A stretch of 33,293 nt of DNA from Prevotella sp. (GTDB lineage Bacteria; Bacteroidota; Bacteroidia; Bacteroidales; Bacteroidaceae). The DNA lies in the NCBI GenBank assembly GCA_017459445.1, contig JAFUDJ010000027.1:1-33293 (forward strand), written 5' to 3'. Below the pieces are notes generated by a model that did no database searches, had not been told where the DNA came from, and saw nothing but the letters and a program-made list of their open reading frames with translations. Made by a program: the position numbers and the translations under genes. Within the stretch, counting starts at the first letter, position 1. Every line of letters begins with the position of its first letter. This document shows, piece after piece, positions 2,370 to 15,721 of the stretch.

Positions 2370-3437
2370 TCACATGGTGAACAGTCCACCCCACGGATAG
2401 CTGCCCGGTTTCAGCGTGACCAGGGTGCCGCAGCGCGCACGCATCTGCACGACGCCCGGTGCCACCTGCCGCACAATGGTGAAATCCGTCCACCCAAGGG
2501 CCTGCAACGTCCCCCATGCCGTGGCGCCCCCCTCAATGATAAGCTGCTCCGGGCGATGCTTCGCGACGAGTTGACGCGCCATGCGGGCCATCACCGTCCG
2601 CAAGTGGACGGCCACTTCCCTACCCGTCCGGTGCGTATGGGGGATGGACAGGATAAGGCTGTGGGCGTCATCATAGGCCGTTACGTCCCATAGGCTGAGG
2701 TCGTCGGCACCGTCATAGATGGCGCGCGGCATGGGTGCTACGGGTATTCCGAGGTCAAGGGTCCTGCTCTGCGTGCTGCCGCAAAGAATGAGTGTAGAGG
2801 GAGGCGTCGTCGGGGCCGGAGCCAGTATGAAAGCCGTAAAAAGCGCCGCAGCGCCGGCAAAGAGCGTCTGTCCGTCGTTGTATTGCGCCACGACGCGGGC
2901 AATATCCTCGTCGCACACCGCGTCCGGCATGACGATACCCTGCGCCCCGGCATCAGGGAAGCGCTCCTTCAGGACGGCCGTCCGCGCCGGGAACTCCGGG
3001 TCATAGCTGAAAGCCGTCTCATGGATAGGCACCTCCCTCGCCGGCAGTCCCTTGCCGCCGGCCTCCCGAATGTAGTAGACGCCGTCGCGGATGATGCGCC
3101 CTTTCGACGGGTTGGCCGGCAGATAGACGGCGCGCCGGTAGCCCGTGGCCTCCATCAGCGCCGTCAGCTCGGCCACGACATGTCCGCGCAGGGCCGAGTC
3201 AGTCTTCTTGAATATCACGGGATGCGGCGCGCCGACCAGCCGCCGCGTCTCCGCCACGGCCTCCTCCTCGGTCATGGAGCGCGTGTCGGTGGCCACGACG
3301 GTGACGGCATCCGCCCCGTCCTCTTCCGCGTCGCAACCCGCCTCGCCGCCACAGACGAGGCGAACGTGCAAGCCGTGGCTGTGGGCTATGCCCGCTATTT
3401 CGGCAGCCCCCGTGATGTCGTCAGCAATAACAATCAT
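2370..3437 (-). CDS. Four-carbon acid sugar kinase (DUF1537, OtnK/DtnK-like)
   Basis: ATP-dependent kinase of the family that phosphorylates the 4-OH of threonate or erythronate. The N-terminal substrate domain starts with IVIADDITGAAEIA and includes KKTDSALRGH and LPANPSKGRII. The C-terminal nucleotide domain shows EGGATAWGT, QVAPGVVQM and TLKPGSYPWGG, which correspond to the family's GG.T, PG and K.G.FG motifs. The ATG at 3437 is preferred over the in-frame GTG at 3446, because members normally start directly before the IVIADD strand. At about 355 residues it is shorter than the usual 400-430, with the middle region reduced. It is the last gene of the operon, 24 nt after the PdxA-like gene. 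Neighbouring kinase and PdxA genes are the known signature of the D-threonate/D-erythronate pathways. The exact substrate cannot be read from sequence. Confidence 0.85.
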   Translation of the reverse strand: MIVIADDITGAAEIAGIAHSHGLHVRLVCGGEAGCDAEEDGADAVTVVATDTRSMTEEEAVAETRRLVGAPHPVIFKKTDSALRGHVVAELTALMEATGYRRAVYLPANPSKGRIIRDGVYYIREAGGKGLPAREVPIHETAFSYDPEFPARTAVLKERFPDAGAQGIVMPDAVCDEDIARVVAQYNDGQTLFAGAAALFTAFILAPAPTTPPSTLILCGSTQSRTLDLGIPVAPMPRAIYDGADDLSLWDVTAYDDAHSLILSIPHTHRTGREVAVHLRTVMARMARQLVAKHRPEQLIIEGGATAWGTLQALGWTDFTIVRQVAPGVVQMRARCGTLVTLKPGSYPWGGLFTM

Positions 3438-3461: not shown

Positions 3462-4502
3462 TCACTTCCCATTTTTCGCTTTCCGGTAGATGGCCATGCG
3501 GGTGGCATAGTCAATGCTGAGCGTCATGGCCGAGTCGTTGGCGATGCCCTTTCCGGCGACGTCGAAGGCTGTGCCGTGGTCCACCGAGACGCGGATGATG
3601 GGCAGCCCGAGCGTGATGTTGACGCCGGAAGCCGACTCCATCTTGCCCGTTTCCTTGTTCCAGTTGAAGGCGCACACCTTCAGGGGGATATGCCCCTGGT
3701 CGTGGTACATGGCCACGACGCCGTCGAACTGGCCGCATTTCGCCTTGGCGAATACCGAGTCGGGCGGCACGGGTCCGTCCACGTTGAAGCCGCGCTGGCG
3801 CAGTTCCTCGATGGCCGGCGTGATTTCCTGCGCCTCCTCGTAGCCGAACATGCCGTTCTCGCTGGAGTGCGGGTTCAGGCCGGCCACGCCGATGTGGGGC
3901 CGCTCGATGCCGAACTGGCGGCACGCGTCGTCAATCAGCTCCACGCACTCTATGACGCGCGCCTTCTTCACCAGGTCGCAGGCCTTGCGCAGCGGCACAT
4001 GAGTGGAGACATGGATAACGCGTATGTTCTCGTCGGCCAGCATCATGGCGTACTTCTTCGTGTTCGTGAACGTCGCATAAATCTCGGTATGCCCGTCGTA
4101 GTGGTGGCCAGCCAGGTTCAGCGCCTCCTTGTTGAGCGGAGCCGTGACGGTGCCGTCCACCTCGTCGGCCATGGCCAGTTCTATGGCCTTCTTGATGTAC
4201 TGGAATGCCGCATTGCCGCACTGCGCCTGCACCTCGCCGAAGCGGAACGTAGACAGGTCGACGCAGTGGAGGTCGATGACGTCAATGGTTCCGTGCTCGA
4301 AGCGGGCCTCCTTGACGCTCTGGATGGCGTTCACCTGGAGGTCAAGGCCAAGCAGCCGAACTGCTTGGCACAGTATCTCTGCGTCGCCGGTAACGACGGG
4401 TCGGCATTTCTCGTAAGTCTCTTTGCGGTTCAGGGCGCGCACCGTAATCTCAGGTCCTATGCCTGCGGGGTCGCCCATGGTGATGGCTAATATTGGTTTC
4501 AT
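3462..4502 (-). CDS. pdxA: PdxA-type 4-phospho-hydroxyacid dehydrogenase (PdxA or PdxA2)
   Basis: 346 residues, full length for the family. It opens with ITMGDPAGIGPEI. The three metal-binding histidine regions are visible: GHHYDGHTE, MYHDQGHIPLKV and SVDHGTAFDVAGKG. PdxA oxidises 4-phosphohydroxy-L-threonine in vitamin B6 synthesis. The PdxA2 subgroup oxidises and decarboxylates 4-phospho-D-threonate or erythronate to dihydroxyacetone phosphate. The downstream DUF1537 kinase makes exactly that kind of substrate, so a catabolic PdxA2 role is favoured. A B6 role is not excluded, because no pdxJ is visible here. A 128-bp octamer array fills most of the gap from the upstream dehydrogenase gene. 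Confidence 0.9.
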   Translation of the reverse strand: MKPILAITMGDPAGIGPEITVRALNRKETYEKCRPVVTGDAEILCQAVRLLGLDLQVNAIQSVKEARFEHGTIDVIDLHCVDLSTFRFGEVQAQCGNAAFQYIKKAIELAMADEVDGTVTAPLNKEALNLAGHHYDGHTEIYATFTNTKKYAMMLADENIRVIHVSTHVPLRKACDLVKKARVIECVELIDDACRQFGIERPHIGVAGLNPHSSENGMFGYEEAQEITPAIEELRQRGFNVDGPVPPDSVFAKAKCGQFDGVVAMYHDQGHIPLKVCAFNWNKETGKMESASGVNITLGLPIIRVSVDHGTAFDVAGKGIANDSAMTLSIDYATRMAIYRKAKNGK

Positions 4503-4543: not shown

Positions 4544-4671
4544 TTTCGAGGTTTCGACATTTCGTTATTTCGATTTTTCGAGGTTTCGAGATTTCGAGAT
4601 TTCGAAATTTCGAAATTTCGATGCTTCGAGGCTTCGAGGCTTCGAAATATCGAAATGTCGAAACTTCGGGC
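4544..4671 (-). repeat. Octamer array A: 16 phased units before pdxA
   Basis: On the plus strand the units read TTTCGAGG, TTTCGACA, TTTCGTTA and so on, exactly 8 bp apart for 16 units with no indel. In the direction of pdxA the consensus is NNTCGAAA. The array begins at the stop codon of the dehydrogenase gene (4671-4673 on the minus strand) and ends 41 nt before the pdxA ATG, in sequence containing AAATAACG and an A-run. A C-run is the only other content of the junction. Confidence 0.95.
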
Positions 4672-5816
4672 TAATAAAGACTAATGTAAATATCGCGGGC
4701 GTCCTGCTCGGTCACCTCGCGGGGGTTGTTCTTCAGCAGCCGCTGCACCTGCATGGCGGCACGCGCCATGCCGTCGACGGCAGTCTGCGGAATGCCGAGG
4801 TCCGTCAGTTTCTTGGGAATGCCGACGGCGTCGGCCAGCCTGTAGATGAAGTCTACGCCGCGCTGTGCCGTCTCGTTGTCGTCACGGCCGGGTTCGCAGC
4901 CTAACGCCACGGCCACTTCGGCATAGCGCTTCAGGTTTGCGGGCCGGTTGAACTTCATCACGCCGGGCAGCAGGATGGCGTTCGAGAGCCCGTGGGGGAT
5001 ATGGAACTCGCCACCCAACGGGTACGACAGGGCATGGACGGCAGCCGTATTCACGGGGCCGAGGCACAGTCCGCCGTACAAAGAGCCCAGGGCGAGGGCC
5101 TCACGCGCCTCCACATCCTTGCCGTCGCGCACGGCTCGCTCCAAGTTGGCCGCTATGAGACGGATGCCCTGCAGGGCATAGATGTCAACGGCGGGATGTG
5201 CAAACTTGTTCGTATACGCCTCGATGCAGTGCGTCAGTGCGTCCATGCCCGTGTCGGCCGTCACCTTGGCGGGTACGGTCCAAGTCAGCTGCGGGTCTAC
5301 GTAGGCAACGTCGGCTATGAGGTAAGGGCTTACGATACCCTTCTTCAGATGGTCGCGCTCGTCGAGCAGGATGGCGTTGGGCGACACCTCGCTGCCCGTT
5401 CCCGCCGTCGTCGGCAGACAGGCAAACCAGAGGCCGCGCCGGCGGATGAAGCCCGTGCCGAAGCAGTCCTCCACCTGTTGGTCGCTATTGAGGAATGCCG
5501 CCACCAGCTTCGTTACGTCGAGCACGCTGCCGCCACCCACGCCCACGACGCTGTCGGCGCCGAACAGCCGGGCCGCTTCCAGAATGCGCTTAAAGTCGGC
5601 CACCGTCGGCTCCGCCACGATGTCCTGCACCACCTCCACTGCCGTTCCCTGCCCGGTCAGCAGGCCGACGGCCTCGTCGATAAGCGGGCGGATGGGCGGC
5701 GCCGTCAGCACCAGGAGGCGCTTCAGGCCCAACAGTTTGTAATCTTCTACCAAAGTCCGGATGCAGCCCGTGCCGAAGACTATCTTCTGCGGCTGCAAAA
5801 GTGTGATTGCTTTCAT
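4671..5816 (-). CDS. Iron-containing (group III) alcohol dehydrogenase
   Basis: 381 residues, the normal length. Cofactor and metal motifs appear in order: GGGSVLDVTKLVA (nucleotide-binding loop), PTTAGTGSEVSP, DTGMDALTHCIEAY (Asp and His ligands), then HALSYPLGGEFHIPHGLSNA (the remaining two His ligands). The family reversibly reduces aldehydes or ketones with NAD(P)H, as in lactaldehyde, propanediol and butanol dehydrogenases. It is the first gene of a three-gene minus-strand set with the PdxA-like dehydrogenase and the acid sugar kinase, so it may supply or remove a three- or four-carbon intermediate. The real substrate is unknown. No consensus promoter is visible upstream, only the 22-bp inverted array. 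Confidence 0.93.
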   Translation of the reverse strand: MKAITLLQPQKIVFGTGCIRTLVEDYKLLGLKRLLVLTAPPIRPLIDEAVGLLTGQGTAVEVVQDIVAEPTVADFKRILEAARLFGADSVVGVGGGSVLDVTKLVAAFLNSDQQVEDCFGTGFIRRRGLWFACLPTTAGTGSEVSPNAILLDERDHLKKGIVSPYLIADVAYVDPQLTWTVPAKVTADTGMDALTHCIEAYTNKFAHPAVDIYALQGIRLIAANLERAVRDGKDVEAREALALGSLYGGLCLGPVNTAAVHALSYPLGGEFHIPHGLSNAILLPGVMKFNRPANLKRYAEVAVALGCEPGRDDNETAQRGVDFIYRLADAVGIPKKLTDLGIPQTAVDGMARAAMQVQRLLKNNPREVTEQDARDIYISLY

Positions 5817-5895
5817 GCTTTTACCTTATTATTTATAGCTATTAGAAAGACGCACACCGTGCCTTTTTGTCATCTTTGCCGTCACTCCCGTCCGG

Positions 5896-6042
5896 GTTTT
5901 ATGCCACTTTGTGCACGCTTTTATGGCACTTTGAGCGGACTTTTATGCCATTTAGCTCCAAGTTTTATGTCAAAAGTCCGCGCTGTTTGACATAAAAGTC
6001 CGCTCAAAGTGCCATAAAAGTGCGCACGAAATGACATAAAAG
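5896..6042. repeat. 22-bp tandem array with inverted second half
   Basis: Four head-to-tail 22-bp units start at 5896, 5918, 5940 and 5962, each beginning (G/C)TTTTATG followed by (C/G/T)CA. They are followed by the same unit inverted, ending CATAAAAG at 5998, 6020 and 6042. As a result 5918-5947 and 5991-6020 are a 30-nt perfect inverted repeat, with imperfect pairing out to about 5889 and 6049. A shorter alternative stem pairs TTTTATGTCAAA with TTTGACATAAAA near 5963-5998. The array lies in the leader of the dehydrogenase operon, downstream of thioredoxin; the 5817-6124 gap holds no gene. Confidence 0.92.
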
Positions 6043-6062
6043 TCGGAAGCTCCCGACACAAA

Positions 6063-6093
6063 GAAGCCACCGAACCGAAGGTCCGGAGGCTTC
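6063..6093 (-). terminator. Probable terminator of the thioredoxin gene
   Basis: On the minus strand GAAGCC and GGCTTC enclose CCGGACC and GGTTCGG, forming a long GC-rich stem with a 3-nt loop 30 nt after the trx stop codon. It is followed by only TTTGTG, so the T-tract is weak. Confidence 0.65.
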
Positions 6094-6124
6094 AAAGTAA
6101 GGTAAATCGCGCCCGGGAGCCCGC

Positions 6125-6439
6125 TTACAGCAGGCTCTCAAACTTCTCCTGCAGCTTGGCTTTAGGCTGTGCGCCGACCATCTTGTCGACCACCTGTCCG
6201 CCCTTGAAGAAGAGGATGGTGGGGATGTTGCGGATGCCAAACTCCACGGCCAGTTCCTCGCACTCCTCGACATCGCACTTGCCAACGGCAATGCGGCCGT
6301 CGTATTCCTCGGCCAGCTCGGCAATGACGGGAGCCATCATGCGGCAGGGGCCGCACCACGTTGCCCAGAAATCGACTACTAACGGCTGTTCGCCATTCTT
6401 CAGGCTCTCAAAGTTCTCGCTTGTGATTGTTAATTCCAT
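6125..6439 (-). CDS. trxA: Thioredoxin
   Basis: 104 residues, standard thioredoxin length. The redox site WCGPC lies at residues 28-32, followed by MMAPVI. The cis-proline region reads RNIPTILFFKGG. There is no signal peptide, so it should be cytoplasmic, acting as a dithiol reductant with thioredoxin reductase. It lies 144 bp after dnaE on the same strand. No consensus promoter is obvious in the gap, so it may share the dnaE transcript or use a weak promoter. Confidence 0.95.
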   Translation of the reverse strand: MELTITSENFESLKNGEQPLVVDFWATWCGPCRMMAPVIAELAEEYDGRIAVGKCDVEECEELAVEFGIRNIPTILFFKGGQVVDKMVGAQPKAKLQEKFESLL

Positions 6440-6583
6440 GTTGACAGTTTTACAATTAAACGGTTTGCTATTATTACTAATTCTCGGTTCTATCCATTGA
6501 AGCTCCTACAAACATCGTGCCACTTTTTTCCGCGCCGTGGCAAGCCGGCGAATCAGCCGTGGGCTTGTCGGGCCGGTCACTTG

Positions 6584-9500
6584 CTAATTGATTTTATAGT
6601 CCAGTGCCGGCGTCTGCTCAATGTATTGTATCAGCGGGTGCCTCACGTCGATGGTTTTCGTGGCGCTGCGCAACAGCACGTGGTGCTTGCCCATGGTGTC
6701 GTGCAGCTGGAAGAAGAGCTTCGTATCCCCCGGGTAGGTGTCAATCAGCTCGCCCAGCTCGGTCACCACCTGGTCGTCCAGGAGGTCGGTGGTCAGCGAG
6801 ATGGTGATGCGGTCGATGGCTTTCTGCTTGACGGTCTGCAGGTACTCGATGTTCTGCACCTTCAGCTGCATGATGTCGCTATGCTGGAAGCGCGGCTGCA
6901 CCTTGGCCGTGATGTACACCGAGGCGCCCTCGGCGAACATGCCGCTCCAGCGCCCCCAGACCTCTCCGAAGAGCGCCAGCTCGCCGGAGCCGTCAAAGTC
7001 TTCCAGCATGACGAATCCGCAGGGCTGTCCCCGCTTGTCGAAGCGGGTGCGCACGCCTGTCACGATGCCGCCGATGATGACGTCCTCGCGGTCCTTCAGC
7101 TTGTTGACGTCTGCCAATTCGTCACACCGGGTGTTGCAGAGGTTGTCGAGCACGATTTTGTATTCGTCCAACGGATGAGCCGACAAGTAGATGCCTACCA
7201 GCTCGCGCTCCTTGTTAAGGCGCTCGATGTCGCTCCAGCGGATGTCGCTCTTCGGCAGCGGCGGTGTCTGTATCTCGATGTCGCCGAAGCCGCCGAAGAG
7301 CGAGTTCTGCGCCTGCTGCTGCTCCAGCTGATAGGTCTGGCCGTAGCGCATGATGGTGTCGATGAAGGCGTCGCCCTTGGCATTCTGCGCGAAGAAGTCC
7401 TCGCGGCGGATGCCGAACGAGTCGAAGCCGCCGCTGAGCACCAGCACCTCGATGGCTTTGCGGTTGACCTGGCTGAAGGAGATGCGCTGCACGAAGTCGA
7501 AGATGTTCTTGTACGGACCGTTCTTCTCGCGCTCGTCGATGATGGCCTGTGCCGCACCGTCGCCCAGCCCCTTGATGCCGGCCAGGCCGAAGCGGATTTC
7601 GCCCTTTTTGTTGACGCCGAACTTCTGGTACGACTCGTTGACGTCGGGCCCCAGCGTGTCAATGCCCATCTGCTTGCACTCGTCCATGAGCTTGGTGATT
7701 TCCGTTATCTGGTCGCGGCGCCTCGACATGATGGCGGCCATGAACTCAGCCGGGTAGTTGGCCTTGAGGTAGGCCGTCTGATAGGCCACCCATGAGTAGC
7801 AGGCGGCGTGCGACTTGTTAAAGGCGTATGAGGCGAACTTCTCCCAGTCGGCCCAGATTTTCTCCAAGACCTGCGGGTCGTGGCCATTTCTCTTGCCGCC
7901 GTCGATGAATTTGGGCTTCATGGCGTCTACAATGTCCTTCTTCTTCTTACCCATCGCCTTACGCAGCGCGTCGCTCTCGCCACGGGTGAAGTCGGCCAGC
8001 TGGCGCGACAGGAGCATCACCTGCTCCTGGTAGACGGTGATGCCGTAGGTGTCCTTCAGGTACTTTTCCATGCAGGGGATGTCGTACTTGATTTCCTCCT
8101 TGCCGTTCTTGCGGGCAATGAACGAGGGAATGTAGTCCATAGGACCGGGCCGGTAGAGGGCGTTCATGGCAATGAGGTCCTCGAAGACCGTGGGATGCAG
8201 CTCGCGGAGATACTTCTGCATGCCGTTCGATTCGAACTGGAAGGTGCCGATAGTGCGCCCCTGCTGGTAGAGTTCGAAGGTCTTGGGGTCGTCGATGGGG
8301 ATGGTATCAAGGTCGAGGTCGATGCCGCGCGTCTGCTTGATGACGGCACAGGCCTCCTTCATTTCCGACAGCGTCTTCAGGCCGAGGAAGTCCATTTTGA
8401 TGAGCCCCGTCGACTCAATGACGTGGCCGTCGTACTGCGTGCAGTTGGTCTTCTGGTCCTTGAAGTCGGGGTCGTCGGCCGTGCTGACGGGCACCCAGTC
8501 GCTGATAGGGTCGCGGCAGATGATGAAGCCGCAGGCATGGATGCCCGTGCCGCGCACGGTGCCCTCCAGCATCTTGGCGTACTTGATGGTGTTGCGCAGG
8601 GCGGGGTCGTTGCTGGCCTCGGCGTCGCGCAGCTCCGGCGTACACTTGATGGCATTGGGCAGGTTCATCTTCATGCCGTCGGGCAGGCGGTCGGGGATGG
8701 CCTTACACAGGGCGTTGGAGACGGGCAGCGGCACCTTCTCGACGCGCGCCACGTCCTTGATGGAGTTCTTGGTGGCCATGGTGGCGTAGGTAATGATGTG
8801 CGCACAGTTCTCATGGCCGTACTTGTCCTCCACCCATTTCAGCACGCGGCCGCGCCCGTCGTCGTCGAAGTCGGTGTCGATATCGGGCAGCGAGATACGG
8901 TCGGGGTTCAGGAAACGCTCGAACAGCAGGTCGTACTTCAGCGGGTCTATCTTCGTGATGCCCAAGCAATAGGCCACCACGGAGCCGGCAGCCGAGCCAC
9001 GCCCCGGCCCCACCATGACGCCCAGCTCGTCGCGGGCGGAGTTGATAAAGTCCTGCACGATGAGGAAGTAGCCGGGGAAACCCATGGTCTTCATGATGTG
9101 CAGCTCGAAGCGGATGCGGTCCTCGACTTCCTGGGGGAGGCTGGAATTTCCGGGCGCTCCGGATTGGCCGGAATCACCGGATTGTCCGGATTCCCCGGAT
9201 TTTCCGGCTCCATAGAGCCGGTGCGCCCCCTGATAGGCCAGCTTCGCCAGATAGTCGGCCTCGAACTTGATGCGGTACAGCTTGTCGTAGCCGCCCAGCT
9301 TCTTGATTTTCTTCTCGCCTTCCTCGCGCGGCAGCGGGTTCTCTCCGTTCTCGTCGCGGGTGAATTCCTCGTAAAGCTGCTCCTCGGTGAACTTCTGCCG
9401 CCACTGCTCCTCGGTGCCAAACGACTCGGGAATGGGAAAGAAGGGCATGATGGGGTCGTGGTCGATGCTGTAGATTTCGACCTTGTTGAGTATCTCCAGC

Positions 9501-10357
9501 GTGTTGCTAAGGGCCTCGGGGACATCGGCGAAGACCTCGTTCATCTCCTCGCGCGTCTTGAACCACTCCTGCTTGGAGTAGAGCATGCGCGTCGGGTCGT
9601 CAAGGTCCTTGGCGGTAGCCAGGCAGAGCAGATGGTCGTGGGCCTCGGCATTCTCCTGGTCTACGAAGTGGGCATCGTTGGTGCAGACGAGCTTGATGCC
9701 ATACTCACGGGCCAGCTCGATAATCACTTTGTTGGCTTGCTGCTGCAAGGGGAACGTCTCGCGGTTGGCGCGGATGGCGGGGTCCTTGACCTCGTGGCGC
9801 TGCAACTCCAGGTAATAGTCGTCGCCGAATACGCGGTGATACCACTCGATGGCCTCGCGGGCTCCGGCTATGTCGCCGTTCAATATCTTCTTGGGCACCT
9901 CGCCGGCTATGCAGGCCGAGCACACGATAAGGCCCTCGTGGAACTGCTCCAAATCCTCGCGGTCGGTACGGGGCCGCATGTAGTAGCCGTCGACCCATGA
10001 GCGGCTGACCAGCTTGATGAGGTTCTTGTAGCCCTGATAGTTCTTGGCCAGCACGATGAGGTGATAGCCGCTCTGGTCTTCCTTGCCACGCCGCAGCGAC
10101 TTGGAGCCATGGCGCGACACATACATCTCGCAGCCGAAGATGGGGACGAAGGGCTCCTGGCCGGCTTTCTTGCGGCCTTTGTTGACACCGTTGACATAGT
10201 CGTGGAACTCCTTGATGCCGAACATGTCGCCATGGTCGGTGACGGCCATGCCGCGCATGCCGTTGTCTATGGCCTTGTCTACCAGCCGTTTGATGCTCGA
10301 CTGGCCGTCCAGTATCGAGTAGTAAGTGTGTACATGAAGATGTACGAAATCTTCCAT
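6584..10357 (-). CDS. dnaE: DNA polymerase III subunit alpha
   Basis: 1257-residue replicative polymerase. The PHP domain starts at residue 5 with LHVHTYYSILDGQSS. The polymerase palm motif PDIDTDFDDDGR, at about residues 489-500, carries the catalytic aspartates; the fingers and helix-hairpin-helix region follow (GIKGLGDGAAQAI), then an OB-fold near residues 1080-1170 (IGGIVTGVRTRFDKRGQPCG). The start codon directly precedes the PHP domain. Between the PHP domain and the palm, at about residues 382-405, a low-complexity insert of Gly-Ser-X triplets interrupts an otherwise conserved stretch. It is encoded by 9-bp repeats. The gene is divergent from psd. Confidence 0.97.
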   Translation of the reverse strand: MEDFVHLHVHTYYSILDGQSSIKRLVDKAIDNGMRGMAVTDHGDMFGIKEFHDYVNGVNKGRKKAGQEPFVPIFGCEMYVSRHGSKSLRRGKEDQSGYHLIVLAKNYQGYKNLIKLVSRSWVDGYYMRPRTDREDLEQFHEGLIVCSACIAGEVPKKILNGDIAGAREAIEWYHRVFGDDYYLELQRHEVKDPAIRANRETFPLQQQANKVIIELAREYGIKLVCTNDAHFVDQENAEAHDHLLCLATAKDLDDPTRMLYSKQEWFKTREEMNEVFADVPEALSNTLEILNKVEIYSIDHDPIMPFFPIPESFGTEEQWRQKFTEEQLYEEFTRDENGENPLPREEGEKKIKKLGGYDKLYRIKFEADYLAKLAYQGAHRLYGAGKSGESGQSGDSGQSGAPGNSSLPQEVEDRIRFELHIMKTMGFPGYFLIVQDFINSARDELGVMVGPGRGSAAGSVVAYCLGITKIDPLKYDLLFERFLNPDRISLPDIDTDFDDDGRGRVLKWVEDKYGHENCAHIITYATMATKNSIKDVARVEKVPLPVSNALCKAIPDRLPDGMKMNLPNAIKCTPELRDAEASNDPALRNTIKYAKMLEGTVRGTGIHACGFIICRDPISDWVPVSTADDPDFKDQKTNCTQYDGHVIESTGLIKMDFLGLKTLSEMKEACAVIKQTRGIDLDLDTIPIDDPKTFELYQQGRTIGTFQFESNGMQKYLRELHPTVFEDLIAMNALYRPGPMDYIPSFIARKNGKEEIKYDIPCMEKYLKDTYGITVYQEQVMLLSRQLADFTRGESDALRKAMGKKKKDIVDAMKPKFIDGGKRNGHDPQVLEKIWADWEKFASYAFNKSHAACYSWVAYQTAYLKANYPAEFMAAIMSRRRDQITEITKLMDECKQMGIDTLGPDVNESYQKFGVNKKGEIRFGLAGIKGLGDGAAQAIIDEREKNGPYKNIFDFVQRISFSQVNRKAIEVLVLSGGFDSFGIRREDFFAQNAKGDAFIDTIMRYGQTYQLEQQQAQNSLFGGFGDIEIQTPPLPKSDIRWSDIERLNKERELVGIYLSAHPLDEYKIVLDNLCNTRCDELADVNKLKDREDVIIGGIVTGVRTRFDKRGQPCGFVMLEDFDGSGELALFGEVWGRWSGMFAEGASVYITAKVQPRFQHSDIMQLKVQNIEYLQTVKQKAIDRITISLTTDLLDDQVVTELGELIDTYPGDTKLFFQLHDTMGKHHVLLRSATKTIDVRHPLIQYIEQTPALDYKIN
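9143..9212 (-). repeat. In-frame 9-bp repeat expansion inside dnaE
   Basis: On the plus strand CCGGATTGG, CCGGAATCA, CCGGATTGT, CCGGATTCC, CCGGATTTT and related copies follow each other every 9 bp. They encode a run of Gly-Ser-X triplets (KSGESGQSGDSGQSG) between HRLYGAG and LPQEVEDRIRFEL. The frame is kept because the period is a multiple of 3. Confidence 0.9.
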
Positions 10358-10385
10358 AATAGCGTATTTTTCCGGTTTTGAGGCG

Positions 10386-10417
10386 TAAAGTTACGCCGAA
10401 AAGGTGAGAATACCAAA
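10386..10417 (-). promoter_or_regulatory. Probable dnaE promoter with palindromic -7 region
   Basis: On the minus strand TTTG (10417-10414), a 20-bp spacer, then TAACTTTA (10393-10386), one mismatch from TAnnTTTG. The -7 box lies within the perfect palindrome GGCGTAAAGTTACGCC (10382-10397), which could be an operator. The leader would be about 20 nt. Confidence 0.6.
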
Positions 10418-10478
10418 AAATTTTATAATTATTAATTGATTTCAAGGAACTAAAGTTTCATAATTCATAATTATTATG

Positions 10479-10486
10479 TACCTTTG
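10479..10486 (+). promoter_or_regulatory. -7 element of psd
   Basis: TACCTTTG is a perfect -7 element. No clear TTTG stands 20 bp upstream; the nearest match is the weak GTTTC around 10455. It lies 42 bp before the psd ATG and would drive psd, pssA and the DUF4834 gene. Confidence 0.65.
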
Positions 10487-10527
10487 CATGTTGGAACGGT
10501 TAACTGAAACCTTTTGAAAAAAACTGT

Positions 10528-11217
10528 ATGGGAAAACGCATTAAGAAACTGAAAAAGATAAGAATACACCGCGAAGGCACCAACGAACTGACCCTTGGCA
10601 TGGTGGCCTTGGGCGTCGTCGGCACGCTGCTGTGGACTTTCATTGACAACAAGTTTCCTTTCTGGGCCTTCATCGCCGTGTTCGGCACGGTATGGATAGT
10701 TGCCCTTAACTTCTACCGCTGCCCTATCCGCTACTTCAACGGCGACACGGAGAAACTGATTGTGGCGCCTGCCGACGGAAAGATTGTCGTGGTGGAGGAA
10801 GCCGACGAGAACACGTACTTCCACGACAAACGGCTCATGATTAGCATCTTCATGAGCCCATGGAACGTGCACGCCAACTGGTTCCCCGTGGACGGCAAGG
10901 TGAAGTTTGTGAAGCACTTCAACGGCAACTACCACAAGGCATGGCTGCCCAAGGCCAGCGAAGAGAACGAACACGCCGACATCATGATAGAGACGCCCGA
11001 CGGACAGGAGGTGCTGGTGAGGCAGATAGCCGGTGCCGTGGCGCGCCGCATCGTGACATACGCCAAGGAAGACGAGGAATGCTACATCGACGAACACCTG
11101 GGATTCATCAAGCTGGGCTCGCGCGTCGACGTCTATCTGCCGCTGACTGCCCGCGCCTGTGTCACCATGGACCAGCCTACCACCGGCGACCAGACGGTCA
11201 TCGCAAAGCTAACCTAA
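10528..11217 (+). CDS. psd: Phosphatidylserine decarboxylase
   Basis: 229 residues, the short bacterial class. It converts phosphatidylserine to phosphatidylethanolamine at the inner membrane. Hydrophobic segments lie near residues 22-60 ([16 protein letters not shown] and [16 protein letters not shown]). The catalytic core follows, with [15 protein letters not shown]. The self-cleavage site that creates the pyruvoyl group is Gly197-Ser198 in [11 protein letters not shown]. The next gene makes its substrate, and the two are only about 27 bp apart. Confidence 0.95.
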
Positions 11218-11244
11218 CGGCCAATGTTCAATATCCAAAGTCTA

Positions 11245-11925
11245 ATGATTAAGAAACACATCCCTAATACCATCACTTGCCTGAACCTTATATCGGGCTG
11301 CATAGCCACCTACTGGGCGCTTTGCGGCGTGTGGGACACGGCACTGCTATTTATCGTCATCGGAGCCGTCTTCGACTTCTTCGACGGCATGTCGGCACGC
11401 CTGCTCGGCGTTTCGTCGCCCATCGGCAAAGAACTGGACTCGCTGGCCGACGACATCACCTTCGGCTTTGCACCATCGGCCATTCTCTTCGACTTCCTGA
11501 AGAGCGGCATACAGTATCTGCCGTGGCACTATCTGGCCTACGCGGCATTCATCATGGCGGCCTTCTCGGCACTGCGGCTGGCCAAGTTCAACTTGGACGA
11601 GCGGCAGGCCATGGGCTTCATCGGCCTGCCGACGCCGGCCAACGCCCTGTTCTGGGGAGCATTGTTAGTGGGTGCCGGCGACTGGCTGCTCTCATCACCT
11701 TATTTATATTATGCCGTGTTTGCGGGACTCTTCGTCAGCTGCTGGCTGCTGGTGAGCGAGATTCCGATGTTTGCCCTGAAGTTCAAGACATGGGGATGGA
11801 AGGGCAACGAAGTAAAATACCTCTTCCTGCTGACGTGCATCCCCCTGCTGCTGCTGTTAGGCATCAGCGGACTGGCAGCCATCATAGCGTGGTACATCGT
11901 GCTGTCGGCAATCACCAAGAAATAA
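11245..11925 (+). CDS. pssA: CDP-diacylglycerol--serine O-phosphatidyltransferase
   Basis: Integral membrane enzyme making phosphatidylserine from CDP-diacylglycerol and serine. The CDP-alcohol phosphotransferase signature is complete: DFFDGMSAR, eight residues, then G, three residues, D, three residues, D (GKELDSLAD). Several hydrophobic helices follow to the C-terminus. The ATG at 11245 (MIKKHIPNTITCLN) is preferred to the one at 11224, because members begin just before the IPN-ITxxN motif. It is co-transcribed with psd, so product and consumer of phosphatidylserine are encoded side by side. Confidence 0.94.
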   Translation: MIKKHIPNTITCLNLISGCIATYWALCGVWDTALLFIVIGAVFDFFDGMSARLLGVSSPIGKELDSLADDITFGFAPSAILFDFLKSGIQYLPWHYLAYAAFIMAAFSALRLAKFNLDERQAMGFIGLPTPANALFWGALLVGAGDWLLSSPYLYYAVFAGLFVSCWLLVSEIPMFALKFKTWGWKGNEVKYLFLLTCIPLLLLLGISGLAAIIAWYIVLSAITKK

Positions 11926-11948
11926 TCCTATAGCTCATCCCCCTGTAT

Positions 11949-12335
11949 ATGAAGGCACTACTAAGCATCTTCGTCTTTATCTTCCTGGTCATCGTACTCA
12001 TCCTCTTGCTGACAGGGGGATTCATCATACGCACCATCCGCAAGCTGCGCGACACGGCACAGCAGATGGCCGACCAGCAGGAATTCCGGTTCCGGCAGGA
12101 GACCGGCCGGCAACGGCGCCAATACCGGACACACGACGCCCAAGGGACGCGCAAAAGCCATACCACCCACAAGACCCATACGGGCAACGAAACAGAAGAA
12201 ACCACCCGCTACACGTCAACGGCAACGGGTGAGACCATCATCGACCAAAACCATCAGGAGCGCGAAAACAGGAAGATTTTCGATGACTCCGACGGTGAAT
12301 ACACCGACTTCGTCGAAGTGAAAGGTGAAGAGTGA
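11949..12335 (+). CDS. DUF4834 family small membrane protein
   Basis: 128 residues: one N-terminal transmembrane helix (about residues 4-27, rich in L, I, V and F), then a polar tail rich in Q, R, T and H. The sequence FIIRTIRKLRDTAQQM directly after the helix and the position after pssA match the DUF4834 family of Bacteroidetes, as I recall it. No function is known. The position suggests envelope lipid synthesis or its membrane organisation, but that is inference. Its last codons form one arm of the terminator-like hairpin shared with pyrH. Confidence 0.75.
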   Translation: MKALLSIFVFIFLVIVLILLLTGGFIIRTIRKLRDTAQQMADQQEFRFRQETGRQRRQYRTHDAQGTRKSHTTHKTHTGNETEETTRYTSTATGETIIDQNHQERENRKIFDDSDGEYTDFVEVKGEE

Positions 12336-12406
12336 AAAATGAAAATTTCTACCGGACAATGATGGTGGCAGCAAATTTTTCACTTTTCGCTCTTCACTTT
12401 TCACTT
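12316..12406. terminator. Long heptamer-built hairpin spanning two convergent stop codons
   Basis: 12316-12348 and 12373-12406 form an imperfect inverted repeat over 30 bp long. Each arm consists of four 7-bp units (GTGAAAG, GTGAAGA, GTGAAAA, ATGAAAA in the left arm; the right arm read on the minus strand is the same kind). It covers the stop codons of the DUF4834 gene (12335) and pyrH (12405-12407). It is probably a bidirectional terminator, but it lacks a separate T-tract. Confidence 0.75.
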
Positions 12407-13115
12407 AATTATGCACCAGCGTGCCTATCTCCTCGCCGTCCATCACCTTCTTTAAGTTGCCGACGACATCCATATTGAACACATAGATAGGCAAGTTGTT
12501 GTCCTGACACATGCAGATAGCGGTCAGGTCCATGACCTTCAGGCCGCGCGCGAGTACCTCTTTATAAGTAATGGCGTCGAACTTCGTGGCCGTCGGGTCC
12601 TTCTCCGGGTCGGCGGTATAGACGCCGTCCACACGGGTACCCTTCAGCATGACGTCGGCCTCAATCTCAATACCGCGCAGCGAGCTGCCCGTATCGGTGG
12701 TGAAATAAGGGGAGCCGGTGCCTGCCGAGAAGATGCAGACATAGCCCTGCTCCATGGCCTCAATGGCTTTCCACTTAGTATAGAACTCGCCGATGGGCTC
12801 CATGCGGATGGCCGTCATGACGCGGTTCTTGACACCCACGGCACCCAAGGCCGACGAGAGCGCCAGCGAGTTGATGACCGTGGCGCACATACCCATCTGG
12901 TCGCCCTTCACGCGGTCGAAGCCTTTCTGCGAGCCGCTCAACCCACGGAAGATGTTGCCGCCACCGATGACGATGCCAATCTGGACGCCCATCTCGCTCA
13001 CTTCCTTAATCTGGCGTGCATAGTCACTCAGGCGCTCCGGGTCGATGCCATAGCCCTGTTTTCCCATCAGGCTCTCGCCCGACAACTTCAGAAGAATTCT
13101 TTTAAATCTTGCCAT
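12405..13115 (-). CDS. pyrH: Uridylate kinase
   Basis: 236 residues. An amino-acid-kinase fold enzyme that phosphorylates UMP to UDP. Motifs: [20 protein letters not shown] at the N-terminus, GGGNIFRG, and [10 protein letters not shown] with the nucleotide-binding region [13 protein letters not shown]. It is essential and usually allosterically controlled by GTP and UTP. Here it stands alone with an unusually long leader of about 200 nt between a consensus promoter and the ATG. The leader consists of a 15-bp repeat and octamer array B. Confidence 0.96.
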
Positions 13116-13140
13116 AATCGTTTTCTTATTATTCGTTATT

Positions 13141-13268
13141 TTTCAATGTTTCGATATTCCGACGTTTCGAGATTTCGATGTCTCGCAGCCTTGATGATTC
13201 GCCGCCTCGTTGAATCGAAATTTCGAAAGCTCGAAAACTCGAAAATTCGAAATTTCGATATTTCGATA
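13141..13268 (-). repeat. Octamer array B: 16 phased units in the pyrH leader
   Basis: Sixteen 8-bp units in strict phase (128 bp), with consensus NNTCGAAA in the pyrH direction. The middle units (about 13181-13212) are more degenerate, for example CCTTGATG and ATTCGCCG, but keep the phase. The array ends 25 nt before the ATG in AAAAATAACGAATAATAAG. It lies downstream of the pyrH promoter, so it should be transcribed. Confidence 0.92.
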
Positions 13269-13310
13269 CCCCGGCGCTCAATGCCCCGGCGCTCAATGCC
13301 CCGACGCCCC
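13269..13310 (-). repeat. 15-bp GC-rich repeat next to array B
   Basis: CCCCGGCGCTCAATG occurs twice exactly (13269-13283 and 13284-13298), followed by a partial copy, CCCCGACGCCCC. It lies between the pyrH promoter and the octamer array. Confidence 0.9.
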
Positions 13311-13329
13311 TAAAACTCCAATTCTTCGG

Positions 13330-13360
13330 CAAAGATAAGAAAAAAATCACAATGTTGCAA
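13330..13360 (-). promoter_or_regulatory. pyrH promoter
   Basis: On the minus strand TTG (13360-13358), a 20-bp spacer, then TATCTTTG (13337-13330). Predicted transcription start is near 13323, about 210 nt before the pyrH ATG. Confidence 0.75.
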
Positions 13361-13404
13361 GCAACACAAAAAAAATATCTGACGGGTGATAATTTATGGA
13401 AACC

Positions 13405-13436
13405 TTTGGATATTTGAGAAATAATGCTTACTTTTG
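13405..13436 (+). promoter_or_regulatory. birA promoter
   Basis: TTTG (13405-13408), a 20-bp spacer, TACTTTTG (13429-13436). The start codon follows 24 bp later. It should drive birA and probably the four-helix-bundle and tadA genes. Confidence 0.85.
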
Positions 13437-13460
13437 CGGAAAAGAGCGGATTGAGCACTT

Positions 13461-14165
13461 ATGGCAGATTGGACAATCATACACATCGACGAAACGGACT
13501 CCACCAACCGGTGGCTGCGGGAGACTGACCAGCAGGGGCAGATGGTCTGCGTATATGCGGACTATCAGACGGCAGGGCGTGGCTGCGCCATGAATAAATG
13601 GGAGTCGGAGCGGGGCAAGAACCTAACATTCTCCATACTGATTCACCCGGAAAACATGGCTGCCGCCCGACAATTTGATATCTCGATGGCGATTTCACTG
13701 GCCATCTGCGAGGCACTTGGACTGTATATAGGCGACCTGAGCATCAAATGGCCCAACGACATCTATTGGCGCGACAGGAAAATTGCCGGTATACTGATAG
13801 AACATACACTTCATGGCAATGTCATCAAGGACAGCATCATTGGAGTCGGCCTGAATGTCAACCAGCGCGTATTTCATAGTGATGCGCCAAATCCCGTATC
13901 ACTATGGCAGATATGCGAACATGAGACCGACCGCAAACAACTGCTCCACGACATCCTGCATGCCTTTCAAAGGCTTTTGGGCCAGGACATCCGAGAGTCG
14001 TACCTGAGCAAGCTCTATCGTCGTCGCGGTTTCTATCCGTACGCCGATAAGAACGGTGCTTTTATGGCAGAATTAGTGACTGTAGAGCCCGACGGCCACC
14101 TGATACTTTGCGACGACAACGGCCAACAACGCCGCTACGCCTTTAAGGAAGTCAGTTATGGCTGA
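13461..14165 (+). CDS. birA: Biotin--[acetyl-CoA-carboxylase] ligase
   Basis: 234 residues, the catalytic and C-terminal domains only. There is no N-terminal helix-turn-helix, so it is a monofunctional ligase rather than a biotin repressor. DETDSTNRWL opens the fold. QTAGRGCAMNKWES is the biotinyl-AMP binding loop, with Cys-Ala in place of the common RxGR. KWPNDIYW and KIAGILIE carry the lysine-containing active-site strands. It activates biotin with ATP and transfers it to carboxylase lysines in the cytoplasm. Confidence 0.94.
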   Translation: MADWTIIHIDETDSTNRWLRETDQQGQMVCVYADYQTAGRGCAMNKWESERGKNLTFSILIHPENMAAARQFDISMAISLAICEALGLYIGDLSIKWPNDIYWRDRKIAGILIEHTLHGNVIKDSIIGVGLNVNQRVFHSDAPNPVSLWQICEHETDRKQLLHDILHAFQRLLGQDIRESYLSKLYRRRGFYPYADKNGAFMAELVTVEPDGHLILCDDNGQQRRYAFKEVSYG

Positions 14166-14290
14166 GCCGGAAAATCTCTCGAAAGCTCGGGAAATCCCGG
14201 AACCTCGAAAGCTCGAAATTTCGGAAAATCGAAACATCGAAGTTTCGAAATTTCGAAAAATCGGAACATCGAAATCTCGAAACCTCGAAA
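14166..14290 (+). repeat. Octamer array C between birA and the four-helix-bundle gene
   Basis: The array starts right after the birA stop codon (14163-14165). The last 11 units (14203-14290) are perfectly phased NNTCGAAA; the first part has small indels. It ends CCTCGAAA followed by TAACAACAAAA, then an A-rich leader to the ATG at 14324. Total length is 125 bp, close to the 128 bp of arrays A and B. Confidence 0.93.
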
Positions 14291-14323
14291 TAACAACAAA
14301 AAAACAAAAAAAACAAAAAAACA

Positions 14324-15064
14324 ATGGAAATCGCAATCTTCAAGCACTACTGGCTCGACACATGGGTACTTGCCAACGTGATACAGCTGGCCACGCAGGA
14401 CTTCTGCATCCGCTACCTGGACCACTCCAACGACCCGTGCGGAAGGCTCTTCGACCAGATGACCATGGCCGCACGGTCGGTGCCGGCCAACATCGCTGAA
14501 GGAAGTTCCCGCCATTCCACTTCACGGGAGACGGAGATGAAGCTGGTCGACGTGGCACGAGCCAGTCTTGCAGAGCTTTCCAACGACTACATCAACTGGC
14601 TGTTGCGATACGAGAGCACGCCCTGGTCGACAAAGACACCAGAATATAACGCCATCAACAGTATCCAACTGGATCGTCCTACCTATAAAGAGGACGTCCT
14701 GCACCTGAGCAGCATCCATATCCTCGCCCAAAAGCACAAGTTCGACGCATGGCTCAACAGCGGCGATTCGCTGACGGCAGCCAACTGCCTCATTATTCTC
14801 TGCAACCGCCTCATCATGATGCTACGCCGGCAGATAGAGCATCTGTTAGAGACCTTCAAAGAGGAAGGAGGCTTCACGGAAGCCCTCACTGCCGAGCGCC
14901 TGTCCTTCAGACAACAGCAAAGCATCCAAGCCAACGCCCCCGCCTGTCCGCTATGCGGGAAGCCAATGCTCAAGCGCATGGCCAAAAAGGGCATCAACTC
15001 CGGCAAGGAGTTTTGGAGCTGCAGCGGCTATCCGGCATGCAACGGAACCCTAAACATCCTGTAA
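14324..15064 (+). CDS. Four-helix-bundle suffix protein with C-terminal zinc ribbon
   Basis: 246 residues. The first 130 or so resemble the four-helix-bundle family (23S rRNA intervening-sequence protein type) with the typical RLFDQMTMAARSVPANIAEG and SRETEMKLVDVARASLAEL. A middle suffix region follows. The C-terminus is a topoisomerase-type zinc ribbon with four cysteines: CPLCGKPM, then FWSCSGYPAC. I recall this arrangement as the four helix bundle suffix domain family of Bacteroidales; its function is unknown. The zinc ribbon suggests nucleic-acid binding. The gene is flanked on both sides by octamer arrays, between birA and tadA. There is no signal peptide. Confidence 0.82.
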   Translation: MEIAIFKHYWLDTWVLANVIQLATQDFCIRYLDHSNDPCGRLFDQMTMAARSVPANIAEGSSRHSTSRETEMKLVDVARASLAELSNDYINWLLRYESTPWSTKTPEYNAINSIQLDRPTYKEDVLHLSSIHILAQKHKFDAWLNSGDSLTAANCLIILCNRLIMMLRRQIEHLLETFKEEGGFTEALTAERLSFRQQQSIQANAPACPLCGKPMLKRMAKKGINSGKEFWSCSGYPACNGTLNIL

Positions 15065-15071
15065 CGCAAAA

Positions 15072-15175
15072 CATCGGAACACCGGAGCCTCGAAAAATCG
15101 AAATCTCGAAACCTCGGGAAATCGAAATCTCGAAATTTCGAAATTTCGAAACTTCGAAACATCGAAACATCGAAA
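15072..15175 (+). repeat. Octamer array D before tadA
   Basis: Thirteen strictly phased 8-bp units (104 bp), from CATCGGAA to CATCGAAA. They begin 8 bp after the upstream stop codon (15062-15064) and end 10 bp before the tadA ATG, in an A-run. Orientation relative to the next gene is the same as in arrays A-C. Confidence 0.95.
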
Positions 15176-15185
15176 AAAAAAGCCA

Positions 15186-15632
15186 ATGAACACCCCCCAA
15201 AATCAAGACGAGAAATATATGCGGATGGCCCTGGCCGAAGCACAGCAGGCCTTTGACGAGGGCGAGATACCCATCGGTGCCGTCGTGGTATGCCAAGACA
15301 GGGTGATAGCCCGGGCGCACAACCTGACGGAGACGCTGAACGACGTGACGGCACATGCCGAGATGCAGGCCATCACGCAGGCGGCTAACGAGCTGGGCGG
15401 CAAGTACCTCACCGACTGCACCCTGTATGTCACCGTGGAGCCGTGCATCATGTGTGCCGGGGCCATCGGTTGGAGTCAGACGAGCCGTGTGGTCTATGGC
15501 TGCCGCGACGAGAAACGGGGCTATAGCGACTATGCTCCGCGCGCCCTGCATGCCCGATGCACAGTAACTGGCGGCATCCTTGAGGAAGAATGCCGCCAGC
15601 TAATGCAGGACTTCTTTCGCCAAAAGCGATGA
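15186..15632 (+). CDS. tadA: tRNA-specific adenosine deaminase (TadA)
   Basis: 148 residues. Zinc-dependent deaminase that converts adenosine to inosine at the wobble position of tRNA-Arg(ACG). The catalytic motif HAE is at residues 57-59, and PCIMC supplies the two zinc cysteines (87 and 90). The start at 15186 follows an A-rich sequence that closes octamer array D. Other nucleoside deaminases share these motifs, but the length and the surrounding PCIMCAGAI favour TadA. Confidence 0.9.
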   Translation: MNTPQNQDEKYMRMALAEAQQAFDEGEIPIGAVVVCQDRVIARAHNLTETLNDVTAHAEMQAITQAANELGGKYLTDCTLYVTVEPCIMCAGAIGWSQTSRVVYGCRDEKRGYSDYAPRALHARCTVTGGILEEECRQLMQDFFRQKR

Positions 15633-15635
15633 GCC

Positions 15636-15720
15636 TTTTTAATCCTTTATCTTAAATCCTTAATTTCTTAATTCTTCAATCCTTAATTCCTTAATTCTTT
15701 AATCCTTCAATTCCTTAATT
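15636..15720 (-). repeat. AT-rich 7-9 bp periodic array at a convergent junction
   Basis: On the minus strand units such as AATTAAGG, ATTGAAG, ATTAAAG and AATTAAGA follow each other every 7-9 bp across the whole gap between tadA and the metalloprotease gene. It is less regular than the octamer arrays and has no strong hairpin. Confidence 0.75.
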
Positions 15721-15721
15721 T

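Follow-up and report, generated by a model that had tools for sequence, protein, structure and literature searches.

The 33,293-nucleotide window analysed here (Prevotella sp., contig JAFUDJ010000027.1, taken whole) raises the question of why one 8-base tandem repeat should fill the spacers ahead of several unrelated genes, and whether it matters there as DNA, as RNA or not at all. The original prediction described four such arrays and read them as a 5' leader or junction element facing the next start codon. All four are present where it had placed them, and arrays A, B and C are followed by the AAATAAC tail that it had described. The features concerned are as follows:

3462..4502, minus strand: pdxA, the gene served by array A
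4544..4671, minus strand: array A, 16 units, in the spacer from adh to pdxA
12405..13115, minus strand: pyrH, the gene served by array B
13141..13268, minus strand: array B, in the pyrH leader, of mixed orientation
13330..13337, minus strand: TATCTTTG, a promoter-like box (TAnnTTTG) oriented toward pyrH, with 61 bp between it and the first unit of array B
13461..14165, plus strand: birA (biotin ligase domain), opposite to pyrH in the window
14166..14290, plus strand: array C, in the spacer from birA to the four-helix-bundle gene
14324..15064, plus strand: four-helix-bundle gene (23S_rRNA_IVP plus Top1 zinc-ribbon protein), served by array C
15072..15175, plus strand: array D, in the spacer from the four-helix-bundle gene to tadA
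15186..15632, plus strand: tadA, the gene served by array D

For array C, the finder took 14197-14290, and the decayed units ahead of this were read by eye. The claim that the arrays always read toward the downstream gene is true of C and D and fails in part for the other two. In array A, the units nearest the adh stop, about three of them, are antisense and give a long predicted hairpin. Array B reads toward pyrH in its decayed stretch beside that gene (13141-13212) and in the two units nearest the promoter (13253-13268), and a clean run of some five units (about 13213-13252) faces the other way, toward birA. Such opposite-sense blocks are found only in A and B among the 38 segments that the listed matches gave in this genome and in none of the 94 segments of the other sets. 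The genes birA and pyrH are co-directional in 72 of the 75 relatives' loci that have both.

The four arrays belong to a genome-wide family. In the genome holding the window (1.97 Mb, 55% complete), a phased pattern of four TCGA-N4 units occurs at 74 places (backwards control, 0) and an oriented three-unit pattern at 101 (control, 0). Within the stretches round the pattern matches listed, arrays stand at no fewer than 35 junctions, 34 of them between co-directional genes and in gene sense; these arrays begin at or close to the stop codon of the preceding gene and finish shortly before the next ATG, and the sole exception is array B, ahead of pyrH and beside the turned-round birA. Counted by segment, 37 of 38 among the matches listed are co-directional in gene sense and one is divergent; for comparison, gaps of 30 bp or more in these stretches, those with arrays included, are co-directional in 83 cases, convergent in 14 and divergent in 15. 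Across six sets holding 132 segments, 114 are co-directional in sense and seven sit in divergent gaps, upstream of the adjacent start and facing it (array B being mixed), so that 121 of the 128 non-edge segments read forward to a start codon with array B counted in. The exceptions, all among relatives' segments, are three intragenic cases (gene calls came from a simple script), one convergent, three antisense to co-directional genes and four at contig edges. The family is thus neither limited to the window nor random in orientation or position across the genome, which bears out the proposed junction element facing the next start codon.

The genes downstream include tsf, ftsZ, mraY and argH. 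Segments hold up to 19 units, and in this genome the last unit lies 4-74 bp ahead of the called start (median 23; 34 junctions). Over the six sets together, the upstream stop codon falls in the unit register at 27 of 84 junctions (1 in 8 expected; p=2e-6), a register absent in two genomes (0/2 in G156, 1/10 in G194). At six divergent loci (seven segments, by eye), a TAnnTTTG box, which we take to be a promoter box from its consensus, stands 1-61 bp upstream of the array, and the array is therefore 5' UTR there. Dispersed single units were rejected as a general start-site motif, since TCGAAA is not enriched in array-less leaders: the last 100 bp of 93 such leaders in this genome hold none, a weak result given that shuffles expect 2.2.

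The unit is YHTCGAAA. Among the 444 units of this genome, C4 (.99) and G5 (.98) are nearly invariant as against T3 (.84) and A6 (.82), and positions 1-2 vary. The variable dinucleotide that had been described does exist, but it is not free, as position 1 is C or T in 92% of units and G is rare at both positions. T3 is missing from 16% of units and A6 from 18%; the CG is therefore what is kept, and TCGA as such is not. In one relative (G156), G occupies position 5 in only 81% of units. Phase is kept, with 373 of 398 CG-CG distances equal to 8, 8 equal to 16 and 17 not multiples of 8, a regularity that partly reflects the finder's search in fixed phase. The view that spacing is more constrained than sequence did not hold up, the CG core being about as constrained as the spacing. 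Adjacent units are identical in 11% of cases (8% when shuffled), and the near-identical neighbours of phase-variable simple-sequence repeats or VNTRs are not seen. A content rises along the arrays from.355 in the first fifth to.456 in the last.

Stacked TTTCGAAA pairs, which had also been suggested, found no support as a general RNA structure of the arrays. The arrays do fold more than their dinucleotide shuffles (mean z -2.6, range -10.7 to -0.2, 32 segments) and more than 22 other co-directional gaps (minimum free energy -0.162 per nt). Nonetheless, the sense strand (-0.238 per nt) folds less than the antisense (-0.366), with coding sequence at -0.293, and the predicted folds of the four window leaders differ, long hairpins being confined to A and B.

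The arrays are not a genus-wide trait: the pattern matches 16 of 200 genomes of the genus, this one included, with a single match in the backwards control (G098). Outside the genus, matches are at control level (3/148 genomes against two in the control, G276 and G300), and G302 and G219 carry nearly pure tandem copies, which form another class. Array copy number differs between species (one genome per species). At 12 junction pairs with orthologous flanks, the array is retained and the number and order of units differ; in other species, the junctions concerned are short gaps or are occupied by different repeats. No single junction requires an array, as one is present in only 3 of 30 genomes at rpsB-tsf and 1 of 29 at ftsA-ftsZ. 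One pair of sister species (L077/L078) has a 24-bp gap with one unit in one and a 73-bp array in the other, with identical tails, which fits growth or loss of the array in place and bears on the transferability that the original prediction had suggested.

We tentatively favour, at somewhat short of even confidence, the interpretation that the arrays are RNA-level, sequence-constrained 5' leader elements of mRNA, with a putative factor and function. It draws on their position and gene sense, the 8-base period, the conserved CG core with varying flanks, the rise of A toward the start codon, the differing unit number and order at orthologous junctions and the fact that most genomes of the genus have none. 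Each array would be a string of YHUCGAAA octamers ahead of its cistron, transcribed together with the downstream gene but not translated. In operons it would start at the stop codon of the preceding gene, elsewhere downstream of the promoter, and in both cases it would lead up to an A-rich tail preceding the AUG. Units would be gained and lost through local duplication and deletion. Such leaders may be tolerated or favoured even inside essential operons because Bacteroidota select starts without Shine-Dalgarno pairing, via weakly structured, A-rich leaders (PMC3155529). The array could keep two cistrons apart and help the second to be initiated independently. Recognition of the unit, whether by some part of the initiation machinery or by an RNA-binding protein (S1-like or of another kind), would be the reason why the CG core persists.

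It is also quite possible, though we lean against it, that the arrays are neutral filler. Slippage would expand short tandem repeats where they do no harm, as between cistrons of a phylum without Shine-Dalgarno sequences, where an A-rich insertion would be harmless; only the A-rich strand would survive in mRNA, and the unit would go unread. Other repeat families with units of 6-9 bases do fill gaps in the same loci: repeats at lags of 6-9 are significant in 119 of 533 co-directional gaps, 46 with TCGAAA and 73 with other units, and at rpsB-tsf five relatives have a GGTAAAAA-type repeat instead (by eye). The patchy distribution points the same way, as array state at the birA locus switches at least nine times on the tree, nearly as with shuffled labels (mean 10.5). 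Slippage alone, however, predicts equal decay at all positions and alike neighbours, whereas the CG stays near-invariant beside varying positions 1-2 and neighbours are scarcely more alike than in shuffles. Moreover, the other families also occupy convergent (26/115) and divergent (36/166) gaps, in contrast to TCGAAA arrays, which are almost never convergent (1/132 segments).

A DNA-level role, in which closely packed TCGA sites would serve a methylase, a DNA-binding protein or recombination, is highly improbable. In its favour, TCGA is palindromic, birA is turned round between B and C, and B has an opposite-sense block such as could remain from an inversion with its ends inside arrays. Yet a palindromic site needs no strand locking, which this role, among those first suggested, leaves unexplained; the arrays lack the strand-symmetric placement of methylase or DNA-protein site arrays, sitting in leaders and hardly ever in convergent gaps, and TCGA is not kept whole. 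We likewise give very little credence to a mobile or templated process that puts one unit family at unrelated junctions, be it by recombination between arrays or by a reverse-transcriptase-like writer with loose template positions. The spread of a single unit family over so many junctions would suit it, as would, weakly, the lack of single TCGAAA in array-less leaders. Unit runs common to different loci of this genome show a modest excess at three units (25 against 8.9 expected) and four (4 against 0.4), but none at two (170 against 157), and no five-unit run is common to its loci; the composition gradient along arrays may itself cause the excess, and what separates the two sister species is growth or loss of an array in place.

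If the arrays are mRNA leader elements, they might further be a platform for a candidate lineage-specific RNA factor, or a modified initiation machinery, recognising UCG every eight bases, an extension that we consider unlikely. Were it true, a genome-wide translational network would cover essential operons (rpsB-tsf, ftsA-ftsZ, mraY, birA-pyrH), appearing and vanishing between sister species, with unit number setting dosage. The arrays bear on how start codons are chosen without Shine-Dalgarno sequences in Bacteroidota: they are natural insertions of a countable, defined leader element, and related species carry them in the same essential operons. Since the empty or differently filled junctions of related species act as controls, the effects of leader length, composition and motif are directly testable.

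No published account of octamer arrays in Prevotella or Bacteroidales was found in the open-licence literature. The closest precedent appears to be the TAACTGA intergenic direct repeats (MacGregor 2015, PMC4679880), described there as lying just upstream of start codons, mostly in "forward" orientation to them, before unrelated and some presumably essential genes, and as patchily distributed, five Bacteroidetes included; a translational role via S1 or another RNA-binding protein was considered. The Prevotella arrays are likewise short, forward to start codons, before unrelated genes and patchy. They differ in that the TAACTGA sets consist of exact heptamer copies, some split by related 7-mers, with two to six copies per set and 819 single copies in the main genome of that account, whereas YHTCGAAA is an octamer with only CG near-fixed, runs to at most 19 units per segment and fills the spacer from stop to start. 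The same paper mentions Moraxella uspA1/uspA2, where pure G or AGAT tracts in the 5' UTR mediate phase variation; the Prevotella repeat also lies between promoter and start codon, but its units differ and many of the genes are housekeeping. In place, low G+C and weak structure, the arrays resemble the Bacteroidota leaders without Shine-Dalgarno sequences described as unstructured, A-rich and low in G+C before the start (Accetto and Avgustin 2011, PMC3155529), in a paper that covers composition, logos and structure and whose main text does not contain the word "repeat".

The STRR/LTRR of cyanobacteria are degenerate short heptamer tandem repeats between genes. The Prevotella arrays are similarly degenerate and intergenic, with a period of 8 rather than 7 and in another phylum, and we know of no strand locking to the next start codon in the STRR/LTRR.

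The four-helix-bundle gene was also considered as an agent spreading the arrays and rejected, as arrays occur in all five genomes and the gene does not. It has no match in the array carrier G156, is present in one copy each in the genome of the window and in G040, and has weak matches in G083 and G194.

The four window arrays lie exactly where the original prediction had placed them, in front of the genes it had named from sequence and Pfam recovered:
4544-4671, array A, before pdxA
13141-13268, array B, before pyrH
14166-14290, array C, before a four-helix-bundle gene
15072-15175, array D, before tadA

The genome-wide search that it had proposed revealed arrays far beyond these four. In the window's own genome, the phased four-unit TCGA pattern occurs at 74 places and the oriented three-unit pattern gave 101 matches, with no match to the backwards control in either case. 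Among the matches listed, a phase-8 finder resolved at least 38 array segments at at least 35 junctions; both this finder and the gene caller were home-made scripts, and the finder's backwards control returned one segment across the own genome and the relatives' loci. The own sample consisted of the window and 25 stretches outside it holding the listed pattern places. For comparison we took the best 80 among 587 candidate loci from named relatives, the nearest of which suggest Prevotella as the genus, and 60 stretches of four congeners (G040, G083, G156, and G194), chosen from part of their listed array places; the genomes used are incomplete. Of the 41 operon gaps of 80-199 bp in the own sample, 28 have an array, a share that is not a genome rate because the stretches were selected for holding arrays.

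The family is polar: with the six sets pooled, 121 of 128 non-edge segments (the mixed array B included) point to the next start codon. In the own genome, co-directional genes flank 37 of the 38 segments, with TCGAAA in gene direction; the exception, array B, is flanked by divergent genes (1/38), and none falls in a convergent gap, though 14 of the 112 gaps of at least 30 bp in these stretches are convergent. The 80 relatives' loci hold 20 segments, 15 of them in sense between co-directional genes and 5 between divergent ones; the co-directional sense counts are 22/24 in G040, 10/13 in G083, 12/13 in G156, and 18/24 in G194. The other 12 congener segments comprise one divergent, one convergent, three intragenic (according to the home-made gene calls), three antisense to co-directional genes, and four at edges. 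Own arrays begin within about 20 bp of the upstream stop codon in 30 of 34 cases (the others overlap or start 16-96 bp away), and their other end is 4-74 bp upstream of the called start codon. The stop codon also tends to share the register of the units: of 84 junctions of the six sets with a stop-to-unit distance from -30 to 12, 27 have a distance divisible by 8 (expected 10.5, p = 2e-6), the contributions being own 11/30, relatives' loci 5/14, G040 8/19, G083 2/9, G194 1/10, and G156 0/2.

An NCBIfam scan took in one upstream gene and 29 further downstream genes, so that all but two of the downstream genes at the 34 co-directional junctions were covered. Array-preceded genes include argH, tsf, rnfA, meaB, mraY, ftsZ, and others, along with those for a Na-pump decarboxylase beta subunit, D-Ala-D-Ala ligase, and phosphoglucosamine mutase; arrays also precede the genes of a LutB-like protein and a methylmalonyl-CoA decarboxylase alpha-like subunit and an FtsW/RodA-like gene, these three scoring below the curated cut-off. 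Eight of the 30 scanned proteins had no NCBIfam family at 1e-20. The genes upstream of tsf and ftsZ, recognised from sequence, are presumably rpsB and ftsA. Three arrays, before mraY, the FtsW/RodA-like gene, and ftsZ, sit in one apparent division/cell-wall cluster (L033 and L034, contig C35 of G000, the own genome). The four-helix-bundle gene (14324-15064) joins a 23S rRNA intervening-sequence-type bundle to a Top1 zinc ribbon; the domains were tested on the window copy only, and the presumed fusion gene has birA and tadA close by in five genomes (window, L041, L044, L061, L129).

The seven divergent segments occupy six loci (window B, L129, L061, L044, L064, and L067), and at all six a TAnnTTTG box, which we take to be the Bacteroidota promoter element, lies 1-61 bp upstream of the array, so that the array there is most likely the 5' UTR. 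For array B, the predicted orientation toward pyrH held for two promoter-end units and the decayed pyrH-side half but not for a block of five or so clean units at 13213-13252, which points away from pyrH. Since 72 of the 75 relatives' loci with both genes have birA and pyrH in one direction (as tadA-, birA+, pyrH+ in 49 of the 58 that also hold tadA), with listed gaps of 3 to 150 bp, array B is most likely a former birA-pyrH operon spacer, birA having been turned round afterwards. The two genes are divergent in the window, L061, and G040 (L129), and an inversion ending inside arrays could be the source of the opposite-sense block. In L049 and L058 they are convergent with their ends touching, a further small inversion at this site. 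A 15-bp unit, CCCCGGCGCTCAATG, is repeated 2.6 times between array B and the pyrH promoter box (13269-13307), and in L050 and L071 the birA-pyrH gap holds a putative hairpin-like spacer common to the two species and no array.

Across species, both genomes carry an array in 12 junction pairs (11 junctions; flanks more than 45% identical on both sides), with unit number and order differing. At the birA locus, 11 of 76 genomes have an array within 700 bp, requiring at least nine changes of state on the tree, close to the mean of 10.5 for shuffled labels; well-supported branches force six. Of two sister species, L077 has a single TATCG in a gap of 24 bp, and L078 a 73-bp array ending in the same tail. 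For rpsB-tsf and ftsA-ftsZ the best 30 of 40 genomes searched were taken each. At rpsB-tsf, three of 30 (own, L192, L194) have TCGAAA arrays, while five (L187, L189, L190, L196, L197) show by eye an octamer-like GGTAAAAA/AGTAAAAA leader repeat instead; a similar repeat occurs at own locus L019. At ftsA-ftsZ, one of 29 genomes has an array (in L238 the upstream gene is out of reach), as does G040, outside that set. A TNACGGAA variant in L043 and L045 likewise places CG every 8 bases. Of 200 genomes of the genus, 16 (counting the own genome) carry the four-unit pattern, with one control match in a different genome; in the order outside the genus, 3 of 148 match the pattern and 2 of 148 the control. 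Other 6-9-base repeats occupy 73/533 co-directional, 36/166 divergent, and 26/115 convergent gaps of the same loci.

Within own segments scoring at least 20 (444 units), C4 is kept in 99% and G5 in 98% of units versus T3 in 84% and A6 in 82%, a difference that is no finder artefact because the finder rewards positions 3-6 equally. At position 1, 92% of units have C or T, and positions 1-2 seldom carry G; the share of G at position 5 drops to 81% in G156. Spacing of successive CGs is 8 in 373/398 own cases, 115/118 in G040, 39/39 in G083, 54/55 in G194, 47/58 in G156, and 88/127 in the relatives' loci, a count that takes in spans between segments. The arrays are also graded: the mean relative place is 0.26 for TCGTAA units (n=24), on the stop-codon side, and 0.71 for TAACG units (n=16), on the start-codon side, and along own arrays of at least eight units A content climbs from 35.5% to 45.6%, with perfect TCGAAA making up 38, 43, 58, 65, and 55% by fifths. 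Adjacent units are identical in 11% of own cases versus 8% when shuffled (5% between loci) and in 14% versus 15% in G040; thus, the arrays are not fresh slippage products.

According to PMC3155529, Bacteroidota have no working Shine-Dalgarno interaction and use leaders of low G+C and weak structure, S1 perhaps taking part; an A-rich repeat leader would therefore be tolerable, and may support independent initiation. This accounts for where the arrays lie, for their strand and turnover, and for their exchange with other repeats; it leaves the CG core unexplained. The constancy of that core beside variable flanks calls for sequence recognition, and we therefore rank first, tentatively, the view that the arrays may act as an RNA leader read by its sequence, and second, as a somewhat less probable reading, neutral filler. 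The TAACTGA heptamer repeats that PMC4679880 reports from Beggiatoaceae, cyanobacteria, and five Bacteroidetes resemble them in place, forward orientation, and the translational role proposed there, but differ in unit, in unit degeneracy, and in that our arrays fill the spacer.

Other repeats share the own genome. The convergent junction of tadA and the next minus-strand gene (15639-15724) is full of AATTAAGG-like 7-8-base repeats, and GTGAAAA-type heptamers (12316-12345 and 12377-12406), mutually inverted, mark the ends of two convergent genes. Repeats of 22 bp (2 x 11) around CATAAAAGT precede genes as inverted sets in three regions:
window, 5897-6044
own locus L030, near 728-1111
own locus L039, near 2683-3279
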